Below, piece after piece: positions 50,377-60,737 of a DNA stretch of 60,737 nucleotides; position 1 is the stretch's first letter, and every line of letters begins with the position of its first letter. Location: positions 1-60,737 of the forward strand of contig JAFSAT010000037.1 of NCBI GenBank assembly GCA_017442185.1, read 5' to 3'. Both the position numbers and the translations under genes were made by a program. Below the pieces are notes generated by a model. It was not told the DNA's origin and did not search any database. It saw nothing but the letters and a program-made list of their open reading frames with translations. This stretch comes from Bacteroidaceae bacterium. GTDB lineage: Bacteria > Bacteroidota > Bacteroidia > Bacteroidales > Bacteroidaceae.

Positions 50377-51408
50377 CTATTCTGTTTGCATTGTATCTCC
50401 CACAATTCTCACTGTAAAAGGTTTTCTGCCTACTTTAAGTTTGAACATGTTGCCATCGTCATCTGAGAGCATATATGTACCCGGCATGAATTTTACGGCT
50501 GTTCCGTTTTTCCACTCTTTTATTCTTTTGTTGTCTTTGTAGATGTATTTTGAGGTTGCATATATTGTGACGGGTGTCGCATGTACTATGTCTATATTCT
50601 CATTTTCCACCAATTTATATTCTAAATGAGTGGTGTTTGCATCTATGACTATTTCGGCTTCATGGTCGATGTATTTGTTCTTCGAGATGCGTATGTGGTG
50701 CTTCCCTTGGGGAATCTCTTTGCTTCCCGATTGTCCGTAGTCTATGTTGTCTATGAATATTGTGGCATCCTTGGGTGTGCAATTAATCTGTACGCGATGC
50801 ATTATAGGGCGAAGCGCAAGGGATATACTCTTCTTCTCCGAGTCTCTTATTTGTACCATACCTTGTGTGGGTTTATGATTCTCTGCCTCTATTTTGTATC
50901 GGTAGGTGTCGGGCATGGCAGGTATTTCGTACATACCATTTTCGTTGCCACTGTATATCTCTCCGTTGAATGTTATTGTTGCGTCGGAGGGGGTTACTTT
51001 GAATACCACAAAGCTCGGACTTTCGGGCAGAATAAGTTCTATCATATATGTCTTACCCTTTTCCAAGGTTTTCATACCCAATGAGTCATATACTATTTCA
51101 CCTGCAAGAAAGTCTTTGTGCTTATACTCAAGTTTTGTCAGCCCTTTGGGAATGTAGGCATAGTATATGCCGTTGTTGTACGTTACTGTGCCTTTGTAGT
51201 TCTTCTTATTATGGAAGTCCAATCCTTCGAGGTTTGGTGTTTTTATCTTCAGCAGTGCGCACAGTTCACCGTTATTGTCGTAACAGGGCGATTCGGTGGC
51301 CGTATTATCGTCGGCAAGCAGTTTTATGTCGGTAAATGTCAAATCCTGTGCCGACACATACATGATTGACATGATGGTCAGCATCAGGAGTGTGGATATT
51401 CTTTTCAT
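50377..51408 (-). CDS. exported PEGA-domain protein (last gene of the tubulin-like operon)
   Basis: This 343-residue protein has a signal peptide (to about residue 20, ending MYVSAQ). An N-terminal domain (about 21-125) contains the DNNGELCALLKI motif. At least two PEGA-type beta domains follow (about 128-210 and 215-290), with VTPSDATITFNGE and CTPKDATIFIDNIDYG. The C-terminal about 50 residues are a further beta-rich tail. The DNNGxxCA domain also opens the next gene product, so the two are paralogues. PEGA domains are small beta-sandwiches, often on surface or periplasmic proteins. ATG 51406-51408 was chosen for the signal peptide. It lies 20 nt after its neighbour. Confidence 0.85.
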   Translation of the reverse strand: MKRISTLLMLTIMSIMYVSAQDLTFTDIKLLADDNTATESPCYDNNGELCALLKIKTPNLEGLDFHNKKNYKGTVTYNNGIYYAYIPKGLTKLEYKHKDFLAGEIVYDSLGMKTLEKGKTYMIELILPESPSFVVFKVTPSDATITFNGEIYSGNENGMYEIPAMPDTYRYKIEAENHKPTQGMVQIRDSEKKSISLALRPIMHRVQINCTPKDATIFIDNIDYGQSGSKEIPQGKHHIRISKNKYIDHEAEIVIDANTTHLEYKLVENENIDIVHATPVTIYATSKYIYKDNKRIKEWKNGTAVKFMPGTYMLSDDDGNMFKLKVGRKPFTVRIVGDTMQTE

Positions 51409-51428
51409 ATTGTGCTTATTGTGTGTGT

Positions 51429-52835
51429 TTAATAGAATCTGTAACCAAGTTTTATGGCAGGGTACAGGCGTCCGCCGTTCAAACTGTGGCTGCACTCTCC
51501 GCTTATGGAGAAGCTCTTTATGTCGAGTCTTATTGTTGCTCTCAATCCGTAGTCGTAGTCATACTCCTTGTCGTCAATCTGTTTTTGAGGAGTGGTTGTC
51601 TCTCTTGCTGATATTTTGCTCTTGTCATCATTGTCACCCTCATCATCTTTCTCTATCATGTAGCCGCGTGCATAACCACCGGCAAGAATAGAGAGGGTAT
51701 TCTGGTTGAATCGTCCGAAAGGTATTCCTATACCCAATTGAAGAGGAATTTCCAAAAAGTACGACTCGCTCTTTATGCTGTCGCCATATAGTTCCTGTTT
51801 ATGTTCTTTGTCAAATGTCATCAAACCCAACGAAAGTCCGGGTTGTATCTGAAACACTCCAAGGAATGTGTGTGTATAGGTGTATTCAAGTTTTGCACCC
51901 CATTCATATCCGAAATATTTGCTCTTATCGTAAAGCTCGCCGCCTATTGTTATATGGTGCGATGGGCGTATGCTTATGCTTGTGCGTGTGCGTTCTTTTT
52001 TTAGTACGATTCTCTCTTGTTCCATCTGCACAAGGGCCACGTCGAGTGTTGCCGATTCTCCGGCCTGCACATAAATCTGTTTGCTGAAGTCGTTATATGT
52101 GGGTGATTTAAGCTGTACAATGTGTGTACCCTCGGTGACTTCTATGTTTCCGGCATCCTTTATCTTGCCATAAGATACGTTGTCGATGAAAAGTTCGGCA
52201 CTGTCGGGTTTGCAGTTTATGATAAGGGGGAATTTCTTCTCCTCCATTGTTACATTTGTGATGGTGGTCATCTCCTCGTCGATAAGCTCTATTGTGCCGC
52301 TTACGGGTGCGTAGCCTTCGCAGGTGACGTTGTATTCATATTTGCCTATGCTTGTCTCCACGATAGCCATTCCCGTTTCGTCGAGATTCACAATCTTTCC
52401 ATCAAAGCTGAGGGTTGCCGTCTCGGGATAGACCGAAAATACGGCGGCACGCATCTTGTTTTCCGATTCAAACACTATCTGGTATACGCTTTTTTGAGCG
52501 ATTGTAATATCATAGTCGGCAAAGATAATTTCGCCCGAGAAATTTTTGCTTGCGCTGTTATATCGCAGAGATTTTGTGTTCTCCGACAGATATACTATAT
52601 ATTCTCCGAGTGAGTAGTCGACATCTCCCACTGCATCGGGGAATTTAAGGTCGTTTATTCCTATAATGTCAACTTTTACCATAGCGCAGGGTGTGCCGTT
52701 GTTGTCGTTGCGAGGTGCTGTTCGGGCGCGGGCATCTTTTTGGCGATATGTAACCGATTTTATGCTATATTCTTGTGCGTTTATGGTTGTTGCGAAAATA
52801 CATGTGAGCAACAGGCTTGTTAAAAATGTTCTCAT
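51429..52835 (-). CDS. PEGA-domain protein with C-terminal outer-membrane beta-barrel
   Basis: This 468-residue protein has a signal peptide (to about residue 20, ending TINAQ). The shared N-terminal domain has DNNGTPCAMVKVD (about 44-56). Two PEGA units follow (about 125-200 and 205-280), with YPETATLSFDGK and CKPDSAELFIDNVSYG. A C-terminal region (about 300-468) has alternating amphipathic strands and ends LGYRFY, the terminal aromatic typical of outer-membrane barrels. It contains an acidic loop DKEYDYDYG. It probably sits in the outer membrane and displays PEGA domains in the periplasm, making it the outermost part of the operon's product set. Confidence 0.85.
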   Translation of the reverse strand: MRTFLTSLLLTCIFATTINAQEYSIKSVTYRQKDARARTAPRNDNNGTPCAMVKVDIIGINDLKFPDAVGDVDYSLGEYIVYLSENTKSLRYNSASKNFSGEIIFADYDITIAQKSVYQIVFESENKMRAAVFSVYPETATLSFDGKIVNLDETGMAIVETSIGKYEYNVTCEGYAPVSGTIELIDEEMTTITNVTMEEKKFPLIINCKPDSAELFIDNVSYGKIKDAGNIEVTEGTHIVQLKSPTYNDFSKQIYVQAGESATLDVALVQMEQERIVLKKERTRTSISIRPSHHITIGGELYDKSKYFGYEWGAKLEYTYTHTFLGVFQIQPGLSLGLMTFDKEHKQELYGDSIKSESYFLEIPLQLGIGIPFGRFNQNTLSILAGGYARGYMIEKDDEGDNDDKSKISARETTTPQKQIDDKEYDYDYGLRATIRLDIKSFSISGECSHSLNGGRLYPAIKLGYRFY

Positions 52836-52883
52836 GGTGTTTCTGCTTTATTTTGTTGAATGTTTTTTTTCATGTGTAGGACA

Positions 52884-53840
52884 TCAGATGTCGAAGTCTC
52901 CTATGCTGAATATTTCATCCTCAGGAAGTCTGCTGCCGTTTATTCTGTCGGGCTGCCATGTGCGTACATGTATCTGAGGATTGTTCTCGTCGATAAAGTC
53001 CCACAGAAGGAACAGATAGCCCTCATCGTGATATGTGTCGGAGCTCCAGCCTTGATGTAGTGTCACGCCGTAGAAATTCTCGTCTACGGGATGCATGGTA
53101 ACTTCAATCTCGTCAAATGATACGCGGATTCTCTTGTTGTTATCGAATACTCTGCCAAGATTTGTAAGATATTCTTTCTTGCTTTGTACCTTATATTCTA
53201 TTTTGTCGGGGATGGCTATTTCGCTTTTTGTCGCTTTTATCACTTTGCCGGTGATTATCAGGGCGTCGTCGCTGAATACTTTTTGGAGAAAGTCCATGTC
53301 TTTTGTTTCGTACGATGTGCGGAATTGCTCAACAAAGTCGAGTATCATTTGGCGACGGCGGAAGTCGGTCACTTGGTTGTTGCTCTTCATCACCTGATAG
53401 TAGAGATTTTGTGCTATCACCATGCGAAAGTCTGTGATGGTACCACTCATGTCGAACCTCACCGCTACTTCGTGGTATTGGTCGGCCTTGTCTAAATCCG
53501 AGAATATGAGCGGAATGTTTCTTATCTCATATTCTGTGCCCCCGTATGTTGCAAGTGCCGATTCGGCAATCTCGCTCTCCATGCAGCGGAACGGTGAATT
53601 TTCCCACATTATGGCTATGGAATTCATAGCCTGTTCGCTTATGTTTATACCTGCCATTCGGGGTGTACGTTTCTCGGCCTCGGCACTGTTAAGTTCGGAT
53701 AGTAGGGCAGTGAGTGAGGCTTCTACTTTGCTTGTAAGGCTCTCATTGTCGAGGTCGGTTACATATACCTCTGTTCGATGCTGAGCGTTAAGTACCAGCA
53801 TTGAACACATGCATAAGATTGTCAAGAATGTTTTTTTCAT
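52884..53840 (-). CDS. exported protein with NTF2/SnoaL-like C-terminal domain, unknown function
   Basis: This 318-residue protein has a signal peptide (ending VLNAQ, about residue 19). Residues about 25-150 form an unrecognised alpha/beta domain (VAVRFDMSGTITDFRMVIAQ near its end). Residues about 165-300 look like an NTF2/SnoaL fold: VEQFRTSYETKDMDFLQKVF, SDDALIITG, later GVTLHQGWSSDTYHDEGYLFLLWDF. Such domains bind small ligands or dimerise. No catalytic set is evident. It lies between the PEGA-barrel gene (48 nt) and an exported acidic protein (15 nt) in the tubulin-like operon. Confidence 0.75.
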   Translation of the reverse strand: MKKTFLTILCMCSMLVLNAQHRTEVYVTDLDNESLTSKVEASLTALLSELNSAEAEKRTPRMAGINISEQAMNSIAIMWENSPFRCMESEIAESALATYGGTEYEIRNIPLIFSDLDKADQYHEVAVRFDMSGTITDFRMVIAQNLYYQVMKSNNQVTDFRRRQMILDFVEQFRTSYETKDMDFLQKVFSDDALIITGKVIKATKSEIAIPDKIEYKVQSKKEYLTNLGRVFDNNKRIRVSFDEIEVTMHPVDENFYGVTLHQGWSSDTYHDEGYLFLLWDFIDENNPQIHVRTWQPDRINGSRLPEDEIFSIGDFDI

Positions 53841-53855
53841 GATTTTGTAGGTATG

Positions 53856-54704
53856 TTATTTATATATTATTATCCACATTTTGGGGTATTTGGCATAATC
53901 TTCCCATGTTTTTGTTTCGGTGCTCATTATGTTTTTCAATTCTTTGTCGAATGCAGCTATCAGCTCTTGTGAAGCATTGAAAATCAGCCAGAAGCAATCT
54001 TTTACATCGTCTTTTTTCACAAGACGGTATTTTATGTCGTATGAGGTGTTTTTCTCTTTATCGAGATATTGTTGTATCTCTTTATAGTTGCTCATACCGA
54101 GAATATTGTCGAGAATCTCTTTTTCGCGGGCTGTGTATGTGGGGTTGTCTGTTTTTATTTTTTTCGCGGTTTCGATGTTTGTTTCTGCTTTCACAGGGTT
54201 GACGGGGTTGTCTTCTGCGATAATCTCAATGGGGGTCTCTTTCAACGGTTCCTCTTTTTTTTCTTCTGCGGTGGATTCCTTGGTTCTCTTTGCCGTATCT
54301 GCTGTTTCAATTATTTTCACAGTTGTGTCTGCCTCTTTTTTCTCGTCGACACTGTAAATGGGAATAATGTCGTTTTTGTGAACATATAGGCACACCACTT
54401 TTATCTGAAGCGTGCGTTCGTATGTCAGCTTGTGGGTCTTGCTTTGCAGATTTTCTATTATGAAGGCATCAATATTTGTCTCTCCGCCGTTTTCTTGCAA
54501 ATGTTTTTTTATTTTTTCCATGAGCTTCTCTCTGGCAATTTCGTAGCAGACATCTTCATCTTCGCCGGCAGCCTCGCCATATATATACTCGGAATTTTTC
54601 TTTATTTGTATGCTTTTTTTCTTTGCATCGTCTTGTGCTTGCAGTGGTGCGGACACGGCAAGCATGAGTATAATGGTTATGAGTGTTGTTATTTTGTGTA
54701 TCAT
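53856..54704 (-). CDS. exported protein with charged linker, unknown function (tubulin-like operon)
   Basis: This 282-residue protein has a signal peptide (ending APLQAQ, about residue 24). A first domain (about 30-120), with EYIYGEAAGEDEDVCYEIAREKL and a following beta strand, vaguely resembles LPP20-type domains. A long Lys/Glu/Thr-rich linker follows (about 125-190), then a small C-terminal domain. The start at 54702-54704 overlaps the stop of the preceding gene (ATGA), implying coupled translation. The long charged linker suggests it spans a distance in the periplasm. The function is not recognised. Confidence 0.75.
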   Translation of the reverse strand: MIHKITTLITIILMLAVSAPLQAQDDAKKKSIQIKKNSEYIYGEAAGEDEDVCYEIAREKLMEKIKKHLQENGGETNIDAFIIENLQSKTHKLTYERTLQIKVVCLYVHKNDIIPIYSVDEKKEADTTVKIIETADTAKRTKESTAEEKKEEPLKETPIEIIAEDNPVNPVKAETNIETAKKIKTDNPTYTAREKEILDNILGMSNYKEIQQYLDKEKNTSYDIKYRLVKKDDVKDCFWLIFNASQELIAAFDKELKNIMSTETKTWEDYAKYPKMWIIIYK

Positions 54705-55804
54705 TGTTTCTTCTTTGTTTTTTCTTGGAATAGCGATTTGAGATTGTGTGTGGGTATGTAGCAATATATGTGTGATTTTATCTCTCCCTGTTTGTTGTTT
54801 ATCACTGTGGGGCTTATCTCTGTGTAGAGCATGTGGTTGTAGCCAAATTCGCTGTTCTCATATACCACTACTGCTTTAATACTCTCTTTTTCGATTGATT
54901 CTATGCCTATGTAAGGCTTGCATCCTTGTTCTGTGCAGAATGTGTGCAGTTTGTTTTGTGCTACTCGGTAGCTTATCTTGCGGTTGCCGTAGAGATGTTG
55001 TGTTACATTGAGTATAAATTCTCCGTCAAGAAGCGAGTGGAACAGGTTCGATACTGTTTCCGAAGGATATTTGGCATCTTGCAACGGAATCAGACGCTGT
55101 TCGCTGTTTTTTACAAAGTATGTATCGGAGTGCATCTCTTTTATTACATAACTGCCTCCTTTGTATACATAGTAGGCAGAGTCTTCTGTTGCTGTAACGT
55201 GTTCAAGAGAGGGGTATGATATTTTTGTGCCCGATGTCTCTTTTTCTTGTGTCGTTATCAGTTGTTTTATGAAATCTTCCTCTATCTCTATTTTGTTTTT
55301 GCCGTAAATGAGCTGTATCTCTTTGGGCATGTCAATGCGGCAGATGTTTTCTCCCTTTCTGCTCCACGTCAGGTGTATCCCTTTTTCGTCGTTCCATATT
55401 TGAAAGGGACACATGCTGTCGATTTTTGCAACAGCTGTAAGGTCAGCTTCAACTTTGTCATCGGCCATATATCTGTTTCGCTCGTGTGTGGGAAGAAGAC
55501 TCATGTGCAGCATATAGCGTTCCACAAAATCATATATGGGTGATGGGGCTGAGGCTGTTGCTGTGCGTGCAAAGAGTGGTGTTCCGATGTGTATTACTGT
55601 GCCTGATGTATCGGTGCGCACCTCGTAGCTTTTGAATGTGTGGTTCTCTTTGAGGGGGATTATTCCGCATTTGTCTGTGGCGTTGCCTTTTTGTTGCAGC
55701 AGGTTGCCAATCTCTTGCAGCTTTAAAGTGGCATAGCTTCCCTGCGCCGTTGCCATTGCAGGGAAGCATATTGCCAATAGGATATGTATCAGGCGTGTGC
55801 CCAT
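54701..55804 (-). CDS. exported protein of unknown function (tubulin-like operon)
   Basis: This 367-residue protein has a signal peptide (ending PAMATAQ, about residue 21). The mature protein is a mixed alpha/beta chain with no motif I recognise, a few scattered cysteines and a basic C-terminus (KTKKKQ). Segments of interest are the helical YDFVERYMLHMSLLPTHERN (about 90-110) and the beta-rich YYVYKGGSYVIKEMHSDTYF region. It sits 15 nt after the zinc-ribbon gene and is translationally coupled to the next. It may be specific to this operon type. Confidence 0.75.
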   Translation of the reverse strand: MGTRLIHILLAICFPAMATAQGSYATLKLQEIGNLLQQKGNATDKCGIIPLKENHTFKSYEVRTDTSGTVIHIGTPLFARTATASAPSPIYDFVERYMLHMSLLPTHERNRYMADDKVEADLTAVAKIDSMCPFQIWNDEKGIHLTWSRKGENICRIDMPKEIQLIYGKNKIEIEEDFIKQLITTQEKETSGTKISYPSLEHVTATEDSAYYVYKGGSYVIKEMHSDTYFVKNSEQRLIPLQDAKYPSETVSNLFHSLLDGEFILNVTQHLYGNRKISYRVAQNKLHTFCTEQGCKPYIGIESIEKESIKAVVVYENSEFGYNHMLYTEISPTVINNKQGEIKSHIYCYIPTHNLKSLFQEKTKKKQ

Positions 55805-55819
55805 ACGGGATTTGTTTTG

Positions 55820-56452
55820 TTATTTCTCGTCGTATGTCTCGCCGGGAGCTGTGCCTATCATGACGGAACCTATAAGTTCGCCATTGGCTTTGTAGAGTCG
55901 TCCTTGTATAAAGAATCCTCTTTGGAATTCGCCAATGATATATTCTCCTGCCGAGGCTTTGCGCTTCTTCATGTCGTAGCGGTTTATCTGACGCTCTTTT
56001 GAGTATGTCAGGCGACCTTGTCCGTGAGGATAGCCGTCTTTTATGTCGCCGCTGTATAGACCGTAGCTCAATTTTAGATAACCGTTACCGTTTACTACGG
56101 TGTTGACATTATCGGGGATTTCGGGAATAACAGGGTCTGTCGGCTTTTTGCCCTTTCCTTGGTGGTCAACTACTTCCTGTTGAGTTTCTGTTTCGGAGGT
56201 TTTCTTGCTCTCTCCTCCAAATATAGCAAATACTCCTATCACTAAAGCGATTACTGCTGCGCCTATTCCTGCAAACAGTTTTATGTTTACGCCACCTTTT
56301 TGAGGTATCTCTTCAAGCTCCTGTTTGCAGTGCGGACATTTGATATTACCCTCCAGAATATCAAGTTCTTCAAGTTCAATCTCTATGTTGTTGTCGGCGT
56401 TGGGACAGCCGTTACCGTAGTTTGTACAGCGGAATTTCTTTTTGTTTGCCAT
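55820..56452 (-). CDS. zinc-ribbon, single-TM, MORN-repeat protein (tubulin-like operon)
   Basis: This 210-residue protein has an N-terminal cytoplasmic zinc ribbon with Cys9, Cys16, Cys39 and Cys42 (CTNYGNGC and CPHC). One transmembrane helix lies at about 57-79 (KLFAGIGAAVIALVIGVFAIF). A Lys/Glu/Thr linker leads to a C-terminal MORN-like region (about 130-200, YSGDIKDGYPHGQGRLTY and GEFQRGFFIQGRLY). The topology puts the ribbon inside and the MORN part in the periplasm. MORN repeats often bind membranes or other proteins. It directly follows the tubulin-like gene and is the best candidate for carrying a signal across the inner membrane. Confidence 0.82.
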   Translation of the reverse strand: MANKKKFRCTNYGNGCPNADNNIEIELEELDILEGNIKCPHCKQELEEIPQKGGVNIKLFAGIGAAVIALVIGVFAIFGGESKKTSETETQQEVVDHQGKGKKPTDPVIPEIPDNVNTVVNGNGYLKLSYGLYSGDIKDGYPHGQGRLTYSKERQINRYDMKKRKASAGEYIIGEFQRGFFIQGRLYKANGELIGSVMIGTAPGETYDEK

Positions 56453-56472
56453 TTTTCTGTCTGTTTTTTTAT

Positions 56473-59400
56473 TTATCCTTTAATAAGTTCTAATGCCTTC
56501 ATTGCTGCTGCTCGGTAGAAGAGGAACTCCTCGGAGCCGGCATTGCCGCCGCACTCGGGAAGCAGAATCTTCTGTGCAATCTCCTGTACTTTGGGAATGA
56601 GTGTCGTTTGACGTTCGTTTATGTTCAGGTAGGTTGTCTTAAATTCTTTTTCTATTATCTCTTTGTACTCTTCGCAGAAGTCTTCGGTGAATTTTTCGCA
56701 ATAGCCTATGCCTGTGAATTTATCGGCAAGGGGCGAAAGGGTCTCGAAGCCAAGGTCGTCGCGTTCTATTGTTCCGTAGGCTTGACGTCCGGTGCCGTCT
56801 TCCAATGTTCCATGCTTAATCTTGCCCATTGCAAATGCAAGTATTATGTAGGGCATGTACTCTTTGCGAAGCTCCGAACCTAATTTTTCGGGAGCAATGA
56901 ACAGTACGGGGAACTGCTCGCCTGTGCCCTCGGTGTGCAGCACGGTTCTGTTTTCTCGGGCTTGAGTTTCGTTGGGGGTGTTAATAAGGCGGTTGTAGCA
57001 CTCTTCGTAGAAGCGGAGATTTTTGAGACAGCGTATGGGGAAGCAGTATTGTATTGTCATCACTGTCATCTCGTTCTTATGCTCTCCGTTCATGTCTACT
57101 TTTACCTCTATACCACCCTCTACACTGTTAATAAGGGCATCTTTCAACCTGTTTGCAAATGCTTGAACGCGGTCGTTGCCCTCTACTTTGGGCAGATTGA
57201 CAAGCACTATTTTGCGACTTATGTTTTGCCCGATTTCGGGTATTGCATTGTTGGTTACGGCGCGGCTTATCTCTGTCTCGTCGAGCTCAAGGAACACTCC
57301 GCTCTCTTCAATTATTCTCTTTGCAAACAGACGAAGGTCGTCGGGCGAATTGTATTTCTCGCTCAGCTGTTCGAGTATGTTGCGGTTTATTATTTTTTCG
57401 TTTGCCTCTTTTAATTCGGCGTCGTGTATGCTTATTGCTTTTTCGCGCACTGTTGTCTCCATTATTTGCATAATGGTTTCAACGTCTATTGCAGCGTTGG
57501 CTCTTTCAAATGTCTGCTCCGAACCTATTATCTCAACGATGCGGTCGCGAACAAGGGCGCTGATGCTGTCTTGATGTTTTTTGTTGTGTATTACGTCGTT
57601 GGTGAAGTCTTTGACTTCGGCCTGATTGTAGAAGCGTATTATCGTCTGGTTCAGGTTGCTGATGCCGCCTTGGTCTTTGCAACGTGCTGCCGCAAGTGTC
57701 TCTGTCTGGGTGATTGATTCGTTGAGTGTGGCTACGAAAATCTCTATGCGGTTGCGCAGTTTGTTCAACTTGCCGCTTAACACTCCTGTCAGTTCCACTG
57801 CAAAGTTCAGTGCTTCACTCTCGGTGCGCTTCATCATCAGCTTTTGCATGATGACGGAGTGGCCGAGAATCAGTCTGCCTTTCATCAGTGTGGCGCGTAT
57901 AATACTCTTTGAGTAATCTGTTGCACTTGCTTCGCGCTCTTTGTCGAGCAGTTCTATGGCTTTGCGCACTTGTGATATTTTCCCCTCAAAAGTCTTTCGG
58001 CGTGTGTTCACATCCTCTATCAGGGTGTCGATGAATTGCAGCATGTTATAGAGCGACAGGTCGCCTGTCTTCCATTTGTTGAAGATATATTGTTCAACGT
58101 GTTGGGCTATTTCGTTGGCATGCTCTTCGCGTGCTGCGCTCTTGTTTTCAAAGAATCTCTTCACACCGAGTGTTCTGAACTGTTCGGCAAATGCTTTGTT
58201 GAACATGGCCTCTAATCGGCTGATTGGTTGGTCGGCCTGTTGTGCGGTTTCTGCCCAACGGGGTGCATTGCCGCTCCAATATGCAGCGAATGTTCCGAAT
58301 TTTCCATCGTCGGTTGGCAGGATGGGTATGTCGAGCATCAGGTGCTTGTCGGTCATGCGCCACTTTTCGAGCTTTTCACTATCTTGAACGTCGGTGCGAT
58401 AGTCGCGATTTTCGGGTATGTCGCGGTAGCCGAGGTCGTCGTTCCAGTTGCTGTAACGCATTTGCAGAAGCGATTGTCTTGCAAATGAGTATGTAAAATA
58501 TTCTATTATCTCTTCTTCGGGGATAACCACTCTCTTGATGCCGAATGTGCTTACGGCTTTTGTGCGATAGGGGACAACTTTTCCGGGCTTTGCTTTTTCC
58601 CAAAGTTCGTTACGCCAGTCGTTGATGTTCTCGAAACTGTATGCGCGGCAATACTCTTGTGTGTTGTCGTTGTTTTCGAGGAATATGCGGCTGTATGTGA
58701 AGTCGCTGACAATTTGTGGCAGCTCGTTGAATGAGTCTACTATTATGCCATTTTCGTTTACATTTGAGTATAGTATGAGGCCGTCGGCTACTTTACTTAG
58801 GGTGTCAATGGGAAGACGCTCGTTCTGTCCGGAAACGTCGTAGGGGTTGTGTGTTTTTGTGAGCAGTGAATTAAGCTCGGTGAGGGCTGCAAAGCCGTTT
58901 GCGTGGTATCTGCCTGCATCGCTTTTCCCCGGAGGGGTCAGCTCGGGTACCATGCAACTTACCACAATACCTGTGCCGCTTTTGCCGTCGTTGGAGAGAG
59001 GGCTGCGGAATTCGGGTATCATGCGGGTCTGGGCTATTATGTCTACAATTGAGCCTGAGCCGGTTCCGCCTGCAAGTCCTGCGAAAATGTATATGTTGGT
59101 GCGTGCGTGATGGCTGCGTTCGTTTATCTTTCTAAACTGTCCGGTTATTGCTCTTTTGTATTTTGCTATGTTTGTTCCGAACAGAATACGTCCGGCTCTG
59201 CGTTTTTGTGCAGCAGCTTCGCCCACTTCGCCAAGTGTTTTTTTCATTATCTCGGCATCGCCGATTATGCCTTTTAGGCCGGGGTAGCTTGCAGGGCTTG
59301 CAAATACCGAATTTAGGTCGATGCCTTTTATGTTTACAAATTCGTTTTCTGTGAATTGTGCATTCTCTCCGAGTACATACCATGTCTTATCATCGGGCTT

Positions 59401-59559
59401 CATCATTTCGATTGTGGAATCGACGTATACGAAGCCTATCGGGAGCTCTGCACGCTCTTCGGGTGAGTATTCTTGGAATATTCTTTTCTTGAAGGCTTTC
59501 AGAATCTTGCCTCCCGTTCCGCCTACTCCTACAAGGATGTGGTTCTCGCTGATTTTCAT
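56473..59559 (-). CDS. tubulin/FtsZ-superfamily GTPase, large form
   Basis: This 1028-residue protein has an N-terminal tubulin-like core. A glycine-rich T1-type loop GVGGTGGK lies at about 11-18. The T4 tubulin signature GLAGGTGSGS lies at 161-170. A later strand, DGLILYSN, resembles the pre-H7 strand of FtsZ. This matches the bacterial tubulin-like family (FtsZl/Tubulin_2) rather than cell-division FtsZ. The remaining about 600 residues are mostly helical and may form a polymerisation or partner-binding domain. It probably binds GTP and forms cytoplasmic filaments. It lies 19 nt after a membrane protein gene and 20 nt before the zinc-ribbon gene. Which lateral contacts it makes, and whether it is catalytic, are not readable. 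Confidence 0.88.
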   Translation of the reverse strand: MKISENHILVGVGGTGGKILKAFKKRIFQEYSPEERAELPIGFVYVDSTIEMMKPDDKTWYVLGENAQFTENEFVNIKGIDLNSVFASPASYPGLKGIIGDAEIMKKTLGEVGEAAAQKRRAGRILFGTNIAKYKRAITGQFRKINERSHHARTNIYIFAGLAGGTGSGSIVDIIAQTRMIPEFRSPLSNDGKSGTGIVVSCMVPELTPPGKSDAGRYHANGFAALTELNSLLTKTHNPYDVSGQNERLPIDTLSKVADGLILYSNVNENGIIVDSFNELPQIVSDFTYSRIFLENNDNTQEYCRAYSFENINDWRNELWEKAKPGKVVPYRTKAVSTFGIKRVVIPEEEIIEYFTYSFARQSLLQMRYSNWNDDLGYRDIPENRDYRTDVQDSEKLEKWRMTDKHLMLDIPILPTDDGKFGTFAAYWSGNAPRWAETAQQADQPISRLEAMFNKAFAEQFRTLGVKRFFENKSAAREEHANEIAQHVEQYIFNKWKTGDLSLYNMLQFIDTLIEDVNTRRKTFEGKISQVRKAIELLDKEREASATDYSKSIIRATLMKGRLILGHSVIMQKLMMKRTESEALNFAVELTGVLSGKLNKLRNRIEIFVATLNESITQTETLAAARCKDQGGISNLNQTIIRFYNQAEVKDFTNDVIHNKKHQDSISALVRDRIVEIIGSEQTFERANAAIDVETIMQIMETTVREKAISIHDAELKEANEKIINRNILEQLSEKYNSPDDLRLFAKRIIEESGVFLELDETEISRAVTNNAIPEIGQNISRKIVLVNLPKVEGNDRVQAFANRLKDALINSVEGGIEVKVDMNGEHKNEMTVMTIQYCFPIRCLKNLRFYEECYNRLINTPNETQARENRTVLHTEGTGEQFPVLFIAPEKLGSELRKEYMPYIILAFAMGKIKHGTLEDGTGRQAYGTIERDDLGFETLSPLADKFTGIGYCEKFTEDFCEEYKEIIEKEFKTTYLNINERQTTLIPKVQEIAQKILLPECGGNAGSEEFLFYRAAAMKALELIKG

Positions 59560-59578
59560 AGTGGTTCTATTTTATTTA

Positions 59579-60169
59579 TTAGTAATCTGTCGAGTATAAA
59601 TCGTCGTCGTCGAGTGAAAAACTTCTGCGCTTGGGGCGTGTGAAAAGTATTACAGCCGATGCGACTGCAATAGCGCCTGCCATCCATAGTATTCTGCGCA
59701 CTATGTAGCTGTTTATCTTTTTGTTGACATTTGCGACAATTTGTTCGGCTAATGTTGCATAGTTGCTTCCGGATATTATCTCTGTGCTTATGTCTCCTAA
59801 GATATATTCTATCATAGGATAGTGCTCGGAGATTGCTTCGTTGAGCTTTTCATTCTCTAATATTGTGTTTGCCGATGCTTCTATGTTTGAGATGCTGTTG
59901 TTTATTCCTTGGCTTGTTTCTGCTATTATGGTTGTGACAATCTCTCCTATTCCTTCGGTGTACTCTTTTGCGTAACTTGCTCCAACAGCCAAGGTGCATT
60001 GAAATGTGAGAAATATAATAAGTAACAAATAGGTAATCAGGCTTATAGATGAGGTTGCGTGGTAATCGTCAAACAGTTTGATTATGAAAAATAATATAAT
60101 GACAACAGCCAATGATATTATTAATCCCCACACTGCAGCGCCAATAAGTGACCCTATTATGCTTATCAT
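59579..60169 (-). CDS. three-helix membrane protein (first gene of the tubulin-like operon)
   Basis: This 196-residue protein has two N-terminal membrane segments (about 2-30 and 42-64). A helical domain of about 90 residues follows (about 66-155, NSISNIEASANTILENEKL). A third segment lies at about 158-178 (ILWMAGAIAVASAVILF). The acidic tail ends SFSLDDDDLYSTDY. It is the promoter-proximal gene of the eight-gene operon and may be the inner-membrane anchor for the tubulin-like protein. The aspartate-rich tail is a possible contact site. Family not recognised. Confidence 0.78.
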   Translation of the reverse strand: MISIIGSLIGAAVWGLIISLAVVIILFFIIKLFDDYHATSSISLITYLLLIIFLTFQCTLAVGASYAKEYTEGIGEIVTTIIAETSQGINNSISNIEASANTILENEKLNEAISEHYPMIEYILGDISTEIISGSNYATLAEQIVANVNKKINSYIVRRILWMAGAIAVASAVILFTRPKRRSFSLDDDDLYSTDY

Positions 60170-60233: not shown

Positions 60234-60252
60234 TATCTCTTACGAAGAGATA
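60234..60252. promoter_or_regulatory. hairpin near the start of the tubulin-like operon transcript
   Basis: TATCTCTT, loop ACG, AAGAGATA form a perfect 8-bp hairpin next to the predicted transcription start (near 60255) of the minus-strand operon. The same stem sequence forms part of the terminator at 60423-60461. Confidence 0.55.
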
Positions 60253-60261
60253 CGGATTCTG

Positions 60262-60291
60262 CAAATGTATGTTTTATTTTTTAAATTCAAA
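60262..60291 (-). promoter_or_regulatory. probable promoter of the tubulin-like operon
   Basis: The minus strand reads TACATTTG (complement of 60262-60269), a perfect -7 element. TTTG (complement of 60288-60291) lies 18 nt upstream, one nt shorter than the usual spacing. It gives a leader of about 85 nt before the first gene. Confidence 0.65.
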
Positions 60292-60590
60292 ATATTTATT
60301 ATTAAAAACTTTTGCAATTAACTATTGGTGACTTTGTTCTTGGCGTTGTTGTAAGAATTTTTGTATATTTTTTCATTATCTCTTTTTTGAGTGAATTAGA
60401 GCATTGATTGTCAACTGTATATAAAAAGTCCGTATCTCTTCGTAAGAGATACGGACTTTTTGTTCGTTTTTTTTGCTGTCGCATGTACTTTGTTTATTCT
60501 GTTAATTTGTAGCTGTCTGATTTTGGTGATTATATTATTGTGTGGTATTTGAATAAGCGGACTGATTCGGTTTTTCATCCTTTTTTGTTA
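60292..60590. other. non-coding region upstream of the tubulin-like operon
   Basis: This part of the 568-nt gap to the window edge is AT-rich and has no convincing gene. It contains the bidirectional hairpin at 60423-60461 and leads into an 85-bp repeat. Confidence 0.5.
60423..60461. terminator. bidirectional terminator
   Basis: A perfect 18-bp stem (60423-60440 with 60444-60461) has a CGT loop, begins with AAAAA and ends with TTTTT. It may end a transcript entering from outside the window. It contains the same TATCTCTT/AAGAGATACGG stem seen in the hairpin at 60234. Confidence 0.85.
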
Positions 60591-60737
60591 AATAATAAAG
60601 CGAGCTTTATTTTATTTCGCTCGTTTGTCGTTATCTTTGAGGTAAACCTCGAAGATAAGCCTGCACTCGCTGCAAAATAATAAAGCAAGCTTTATTTTTA
60701 TTTCGCTCGTTTGTCGTTATCTTTGAGGTAAACCTCG
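60591..60737. repeat. 85-bp tandem repeat, second copy cut by the window edge
   Basis: Copy 1 runs 60591-60675 and copy 2 runs from 60676 to the end. They differ by one base in the GCGAGC/GCAAGC loop and by one extra T. Each unit holds a perfect hairpin AATAAAGC/GCTTTATT (60594-60611 in copy 1) and a longer hairpin around TTATCTTTGAGG and CCTCGAAGATAA (60631-60658). TATCTTTG inside the second hairpin matches the Bacteroidota -7 element. Confidence 0.85.

Follow-up and report, generated by a model that had tools for sequence, protein, structure and literature searches.

What might a large tubulin-like protein do in an operon that otherwise encodes membrane and exported proteins? The question is posed by eight open reading frames (ORFs) on the - strand, running from 60169 down to 50377 in the ORF listing of a 60,737-nucleotide (nt) stretch of Bacteroidaceae DNA (contig JAFSAT010000037.1, assembly GCA_017442185.1), here called the window, which is an entire contig of a 2.36-Mb genome. 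A reviewer of the 2010 paper of Makarova and Koonin on the FtsZl1 family (PMC2875224), to which gene 2 of the operon is assigned below, had already asked how a cytoplasmic protein fits with periplasmic and outer-membrane neighbours. We favour the reading that the operon encodes a horizontally transferred, modular envelope apparatus coupling the tubulin-like protein to an exported set, and give it an even chance. No description of the operon was found in the open-access literature (which takes in few subscription papers, with preprints and supplements outside its scope). Its features are as follows.

60262..60291, - strand: promoter match TTTG-N18-TANNTTTG, Bacteroidota-type, 92 nt 5' of gene 1, from a pattern search
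59579..60169, - strand: gene 1, membrane protein of 196 residues with three hydrophobic helices, from the ORF and its hydrophobicity
56473..59559, - strand: gene 2, tubulin-like protein of 1028 residues, Tubulin_2/FtsZl1 family, from PF13809 and the T1 and T4 motifs
55820..56452, - strand: gene 3, proposed bridge with a four-Cys zinc-ribbon-like N-terminus, one transmembrane helix and a MORN-like domain, from sequence features
54701..55804, - strand: gene 4, exported protein of 367 residues, from a signal-like N-terminus; no Pfam match
53856..54704, - strand: gene 5, exported protein, some relatives of which match an LPP20-type domain, from sequence features
52884..53840, - strand: gene 6, exported protein with a weak NTF2-like signal, from Cds6_C and SnoaL_3 matches below cut-off
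51429..52835, - strand: gene 7, exported protein with two PEGA stretches (E 2.2e-12) and an outer-membrane barrel (OMP_b-brl_2, E 3.6e-06)
50377..51408, - strand: gene 8, exported protein with two PEGA stretches (E 1.4e-10), paralogue of gene 7

The sequence-only reading of the window had described eight same-strand genes with gaps of 48 nt or less and one overlap behind a single promoter, and this layout is borne out: the successive intergenic distances are 19, 20, 15, -4, 15, 48 and 20 nt (gaps of 15–48 nt and one 4-nt overlap, assuming ATG starts for gene 5 at 54704 and gene 8 at 51408), with one promoter match. Most of its outlines of the products also stand. Gene 1 has the three predicted hydrophobic helices, gene 2 contains the tubulin motifs GVGGTGGK and GGTGSGS within a strong PF13809 match, gene 3 combines four N-terminal Cys residues with one helix and a weak MORN match (E 0.0021, below cut-off), and genes 7 and 8 both contain PEGA, with the barrel of gene 7 barely above cut-off. 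Genes 4–6 had been taken for exported proteins of unknown function; signal-like N-termini, recognized by eye in genes 4–8, agree with export, and for gene 6 there is now the weak NTF2-like signal (Cds6_C 9.5e-05 and SnoaL_3 0.013, both below cut-off). A pattern search found no lipobox in genes 4–8.

Judged by profile comparison, genes 1–6 are a conserved unit in Bacteroidales, a finding that is new here. The clade examined comprises 30 loci (comparison loci carry L numbers, genomes G numbers): the window, three loci from a scan of named genomes (Prevotella/Prevotellaceae, gene 2 61% identical), four from an order sample, in which PF13809 occurs in 14 of 295 genomes at 17 places, and 22 from a family sample, in which 24 of 201 genomes contain a gene-2 relative at E <= 0.001 and 22 at E < 1e-60. 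Other Tubulin_2 branches (L024–L026, L028, L030, and L083 of G477 in the family sample), matches that were too weak (L029, L031, L032 and one in G433) and four order-sample places without flanks lie outside this set. In six-frame profile searches, all of genes 1–6 are present at 25 of the 30 loci; these loci also supplied the profiles, and single-sequence searches with the window proteins already give the same pattern. The conserved co-occurrence that the sequence-only reading proposed to check in Bacteroidota is equally evident at the genome level, since the gene-6 family, found in 66 of the 201 family genomes, includes 22/22 of those with the gene-2 clade vs 44/179 of those without (hypergeometric p 1.4e-12, genomes treated as unrelated). 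Tubulin homologues without these neighbours, which that reading had named as evidence against itself, do exist in the wide family, beside vWA, protease or caspase genes; in the clade this is found at one locus of 30 (L084).

The best evidence that gene 3 couples the tubulin-like protein to the periplasm is a swap of its membrane anchor. All 28 tubulin-linked gene-3 copies, one of them betaproteobacterial, show at least one CxxC in their first 90 residues, with the strongest hydrophobic segment C-terminal of it (28/28; the L019 and L078 copies were not called and are excluded, and L075 was called with an overlong start). By comparison, CxxC occurs in 0/4 gene-3 homologues from tubulin-free loci, of which L122, L239 and L240 display lipoprotein-type signals and L242, whose match to gene 3 is confined to the MORN-like part, a plain signal-like N-terminus. 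This comparison supports a MORN/Ig-type outer domain that would be exported where there is no tubulin and held behind a ribbon and a membrane anchor where there is one. Two gene-3 relatives (L018 and L064) contain a Big_2 domain, which is an extracellular-type domain, C-terminal of the transmembrane helix. On a Paraburkholderia megaplasmid, a tubulin 27% identical to gene 2 is followed by a ribbon-transmembrane protein with TPR repeats, whose N-terminal part, including the ribbon and the helix, aligns with the gene-3 profile, the MORN part remaining unmatched. The swap offers a concrete, testable answer to the compartment objection of 2010, in the form in which PMC2875224 reports it: one family with the same outer domain and two anchors.

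Genes 1 and 3 also follow gene 2 most closely in their divergence. Pairwise distances correlate with those of gene 2 at r 0.64 for gene 1 (25 homologous proteins labelled across the 39 loci of the first set) and r 0.62 for gene 3 (largest of 2000 shuffles 0.30 and 0.36), and at r 0.41, 0.34 and 0.29 for genes 4, 5 and 6 (largest shuffles 0.33, 0.33 and 0.28), with L022, L067, L084, L085 and the loci of other Tubulin_2 branches excluded and with shuffles that ignore relatedness. At L074, a 251-residue Cys-ribbon protein with at least two hydrophobic segments replaces gene 1 upstream of gene 2.

Comparison shows the exported part, as far as it can be recognized by homology, to be more widespread than the tubulin part. 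In a phylum sample, 25 of 395 genomes encode a member of the gene-6 family. Twenty gene-6 stretches (L109–L128), fetched from 34 listed places outside the two known tubulin operons, contain genes 4, 5, 6 and PEGA proteins in varying combinations and gene 2 in 0/20; one of them, on contig 39 of the window's own genome (L109, 25000–44999), reads TPR protein, gene 4, gene 6 and a protein like family c1 described below, without tubulin and without gene 5. In a further comparison of 15 gene-6 loci (14 from the family sample plus L109), a gene-2 piece is found in L249 only (at L245 and L251, gene 6 itself was missed in the gene calls). Gene 4, for which the first locus set contains 26 homologous proteins, gives an AlphaFold2 model with a mean predicted local distance difference test (pLDDT) of 62, and its best Foldseek matches are NTF2-like proteins (E 6.5e-03, template-modelling score to the query 0.15), only a hint of an NTF2/ketosteroid-isomerase-like fold. 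LPP20 is matched by gene-5 relatives at 8.6e-08 in L125 and at 0.0084, below cut-off, in L110, with no match in the window gene 5 in the Pfam search. In L125 the counterparts of genes 5 and 6 form one fused protein (gene-6 relatives comparable in length are present in L126 and L128), suggesting that the products of these two genes act together. Gene 6 is the better conserved of the two exported genes aligned (mean column identity 49% in an alignment of 27 vs 34% for gene 4).

Such independent distribution is what one would expect if the periplasmic and tubulin modules were merely co-transcribed and travelled together without touching, as genes 4–6 exist without tubulin and gene 2 of the wider family exists without genes 4–6. 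The gene-3 anchor, however, differs beside tubulin, and the gene-2 clade never occurs without the gene-6 family in the 22 family genomes that contain it (22/22), so that we regard simple co-transcription as distinctly improbable.

By the same comparisons, the last two genes of the operon are exchangeable, which is also new here. Genes 7 and 8 match each other at 4.3e-31. Elsewhere their position is occupied by 19 proteins of family c1 (about 510 residues) and 17 of family c2 (about 255 residues) by clustering, to which profiles add a few weaker ones; PEGA or gene-7-like proteins stand there in the window, L020, L027, L068, L073 and L074 (the last assigned by profile only and cut by a contig end), with PEGA fused to an FGE-sulfatase domain in L020, L068 and L073. 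The barrel of gene 7 is not a constant part, and the outer-membrane PEGA end would therefore be the variable part of the apparatus. A homology of c1 with the PEGA proteins was considered and not accepted (hhalign probability 69.6%, with an alignment that begins in the signal peptide).

The operon passes between genera as one block with sharp edges at its ends, as a nucleotide comparison of L076 and L079 shows. The two come from different genera and share a 12.8-kb block, matching at 86%, that starts about 0.6 kb 5' of gene 1 and stops at the end of c2; in the 20-kb stretches compared, the only further match (0.6 kb) links the tandem gene-2 copies within the operon. Members of the same genus do not group in the gene-2 tree, which was made by a quick method and has several long branches: six genera require 11 changes, against a mean of 11.5 after shuffling, and 98 of 200 shuffles gave a value this low. 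An origin from a mobile element was considered and rejected; no phage matched gene 2, and the G+C content of the operon (0.439) does not differ from that of the rest of the window (0.449). Gene 2 has one distant short match in IMG/VR and matches in two plasmid records, and gene 6 has no match in IMG/VR. L086:9956-11053, on a 250-kb IMG/VR contig, is a gene for a tubulin/FtsZ-like protein of 365 residues whose loop reads AAGGTGSGS. The region around rsgA is a possible insertion hot spot: rsgA was found in 36 of 41 genomes, and in 20 stretches fetched around it from members of the genus asd lies nearby in 16, with genes 2 and 6 in 0/20 (some stretches end soon after asd), and L069, a divergent operon from another species of the genus, also lies near rsgA-frr.

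The large product of gene 2 is a member of the Tubulin_2/FtsZl1 family on the strength of its domain and motif matches. Residues 8–363 match PF13809 (Tubulin_2) with E 1.5e-54 and 186.1 bits against a curated cut-off of 27, and PF00091 at E 0.0084, below cut-off. The T1 motif GVGGTG begins at residue 11 and the T4 motif GGTGSG at residue 164. The T4-loop GGTGS is invariant in 31/31 aligned relatives, and T1 and T4 patterns are found together in 34 of 39 gene-2-labelled proteins of the first locus set, the exceptions being L028 (T4 only), a fragment in L067, the tandem paralogues of L076 and L079 (neither motif) and L084 (T4 degenerate, start cut off by the contig end). PMC9871819 ties Tubulin_2 to the FtsZ-like proteins of Makarova and Koonin. 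With FtsZ, gene 2 shares the tubulin-type T4 loop and differs in that FtsZ_C (PF12327) gave no match in the Pfam search; a separate FtsZ is encoded on contig 44 of the window's genome (G000). A stretch E-N-x-D/N near residue 310, T7-like by eye, could not be demonstrated as such and is not claimed. The 774-residue tandem paralogues without T1 and T4 lie between gene 1 and an intact gene 2 (L076:5980-8304 and L079:5587-7911) and look like inactive partner subunits.

Gene 2 could also be a non-polymerizing GTP switch, a soluble regulator that senses the state of the periplasmic complex via genes 1 and 3, and hence a signalling device and not a structural one. Profile comparison recognizes no T7 catalytic loop in gene 2, and T6-H7 was not identified in the family by Makarova and Koonin in the available text of PMC2875224. 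Two further features suit a regulator: the large helical C-terminal part (long helices at 503–551 and 557–626 of a low-confidence model with a whole-model pLDDT of 42) and the GYF_2 domain at the C-terminus of nine relatives from one Bacteroidales branch (9/9 tested; L064 3.6e-15, L065, L066 and L068–L073 2.1e-13 or better) and of a distant Azospirillum homologue (L088:9938-13582, 2.7e-14). The Pfam search found no GYF_2 in the window gene 2 or in L074. However, a motif-less paralogue beside an intact gene 2, as in L076 and L079, is easier to picture as a co-assembly partner, and the authors' response in PMC2875224 ascribes filament formation to characterized superfamily members. We consider such a switch possible but doubtful.

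FtsZl1, as described in PMC2875224, consists of an N-terminal FtsZ-like domain, a coiled coil and a helical C-terminus; its operons often, though not always, contain vWA, GTPase, kinase or OmpA-like proteins, and a role in membrane remodelling was proposed. Gene 2 resembles it as a PF13809 member of about 1000 residues in an operon with membrane and exported proteins, and Bacteroides caccae is included in the alignment of that paper. The operon differs in its zinc-ribbon bridge and three exported families, some of which may be listed in Additional Files 5 and 6 of PMC2875224, and a Pfam search of the eight proteins at E up to 1 found no vWA, P-loop GTPase, kinase or OmpA domain. In Synechocystis, mutants of Sll0445 (Tubulin_2) show impaired phototaxis and an altered fluorescence rise, and Sll0445-Sll0447 have putative contacts with pilus-assembly and photosystem proteins (PMC9880817); the neighbours of Sll0445 there are FtsA-like and DivIC-like, and the accessible part of that report describes no outer-membrane partner. 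Sll0445 is also deregulated in a comFB mutant (PMC12313861), and the open-access literature yielded no other mutant data for the family.

More distant homologues have other neighbours: trypsin-like, Hsp70-like and thrombospondin-3-repeat genes (the last vWA-like by eye) at L024, VWA_2 and calpain-like genes at L083, a weak VWA_2 at L026, caspase and DUF4384 at L087, and, as annotated, three caspase-family, three OmpA-family, two DUF4384 and one PEGA gene at L088. L087 and L088 are proteobacterial replicons in which the Tubulin_2 gene is accompanied by caspase-family peptidase, DUF4384, Gly-zipper, OmpA or PEGA genes. Because of these neighbours (trypsin-like/Hsp70-like, calpain-like/vWA and caspase/DUF4384) and the patchy, horizontal spread of the operon, the main rival is an anti-invader (conflict) system, in which the tubulin would be a GTP-dependent assembly platform that triggers a response when a signal arrives in the periplasm or at the surface. 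Kaur et al. (2020; PMC7159879) describe tubulins within conflict systems built around GTPases, together with DO-GTPase/GAP1, vWA and HSP70; these share with our operon membrane-bound extracellular partners and, as far as the low-confidence model of gene 2 suggests, a tubulin with a helical/coiled-coil C-terminal part, and their effector list includes an FGE-type domain of C-type-lectin fold, comparable to the FGE-sulfatase domain of the relatives' PEGA-FGE proteins. The accessible text of PMC7159879, however, reports GAP1-N2 tubulin neighbourhoods from Firmicutes and Actinobacteria only, and no GTPase domain besides gene 2 and no Hsp70-like domain was found in the operon with Pfam at E up to 1. 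Among the eight proteins, Pfam likewise detects no effector, nuclease, peptidase, vWA or P-loop GTPase domain at a significant level, PADLOC matches reach only E 0.026 and weaker, and genes 4–8 look exported. We rate a conflict system as unlikely, though serious. We prefer envelope or surface organization in view of partners that appear to be membrane-bound or exported and of the lack of any effector domain in the Pfam and PADLOC searches.

In the envelope apparatus that we favour, gene 2 would bind GTP through its T1 and T4 loops, as the motifs suggest, and gather on the cytoplasmic face of the inner membrane, by analogy with the assembly of its superfamily. Its docking partners there may be gene 1 and the zinc ribbon of gene 3, to which co-evolution and the anchor swap point. 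Gene 3 would span the membrane once and, in line with the comparison above, place its MORN/Ig-type domain in the periplasm, where operon order and exchange suggest that it engages the exported genes 4–6. These in turn may carry the exchangeable outermost part, a PEGA-barrel pair here and PEGA-FGE or another pair elsewhere. The likely job would be to set, under GTP control and from within the cell, the position or state of an outer complex near the surface, probably an accessory function rather than cell division, as FtsZ is encoded elsewhere in the genome. The operon thereby falls into three parts (tubulin/inner-membrane, exported and exchangeable tip), which allows contacts to be predicted pair by pair. 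A more specific version, which we think rather unlikely, has a GTP-driven, tubulin-type assembly mechanically coupled via the single-pass zinc-ribbon protein to the periplasmic complex and the exchangeable outer-membrane tip, with tubulin dynamics organizing the outer surface, in a system derived by conversion of a free-standing periplasmic lipoprotein system.

Several observations weigh against the envelope apparatus. The GTPase activity, polymer and physical contacts of gene 2 are all predictions. Its AlphaFold2 model (four-sequence input) is poor (pLDDT 42, predicted template-modelling score 0.33), so that the assigned fold rests on the Pfam matches; tubulin and FtsZ are absent among PDB sequence matches to the gene-2 alignment at E up to 10, and a profile comparison with 30 FtsZ proteins aligned only 15 columns around T4, in keeping with the remark in PMC2875224 that T6-H7 elements are not identifiable. 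The tubulin-free sample behind the anchor swap consists of four copies only, and a loose lipobox pattern also matches 5 of the 28 tubulin-linked copies (L018, L020–L022 and L063), inside the Cys ribbon. A ranking from inside to outside by distance correlation was rejected, as c1 (0.42, 18 rows) and c2 (0.41, 16 rows) do not fall below genes 4–6, their values lying under the largest of 2000 shuffles (0.47 and 0.44); we rely solely on the higher values of genes 1 and 3, which are measured against shuffles blind to relatedness. Not every clade locus is complete: L027 and L074 contain genes 2–6 with no recognizable gene 1, L022 and L085 are interrupted by contig ends, L022 also being without gene 1 upstream (in the L085 genome, genes 3–6 follow a gene-2 end on another contig, L249), and L084, 1/30, contains gene 2 with a degenerate T4 but lacks genes 3–6 though the contig continues. 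Coupling to tubulin may be optional, because genes 4–6 occur elsewhere without it. The sequence-only reading had made the outer-membrane PEGA end part of the system; PEGA and barrel proved not to be core, most loci having another pair there. It had also proposed a new kind of trans-envelope system, of which the inside-to-outside layout stands, backed by the gene-3 anchor swap, but an association of FtsZl1 with proteins of the membrane, periplasm and outer membrane had already been published in 2010 (PMC2875224).

The promoter pattern TTTG-N18-TANNTTTG, the Bacteroidota consensus by which the match at 60291–60262 is classed as Bacteroidota-type, matches seven times in the window (shuffled mean 1.86), and that match is the sole one from 50377 to the window end. 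Upstream of it lies a strong terminator-like hairpin, listed for the + strand, at 60421–60463. Its sequence CCGTATCTCTTCGTAAGAGATA is repeated in the leader between promoter and gene 1 (60234–60255), followed by a T-rich stretch; the leader hairpin could conceivably act as an attenuator. Downstream, asd is the next gene after gene 8 on the same strand, and the 151-nt gap upstream of asd contains a promoter-like stretch by eye, with no match to the pattern there. The contig end at 60590–60737 carries a near-perfect direct repeat (cgaggtttacctcaaagataacgac..., two copies), which may be the reason why the assembly stops at this point.

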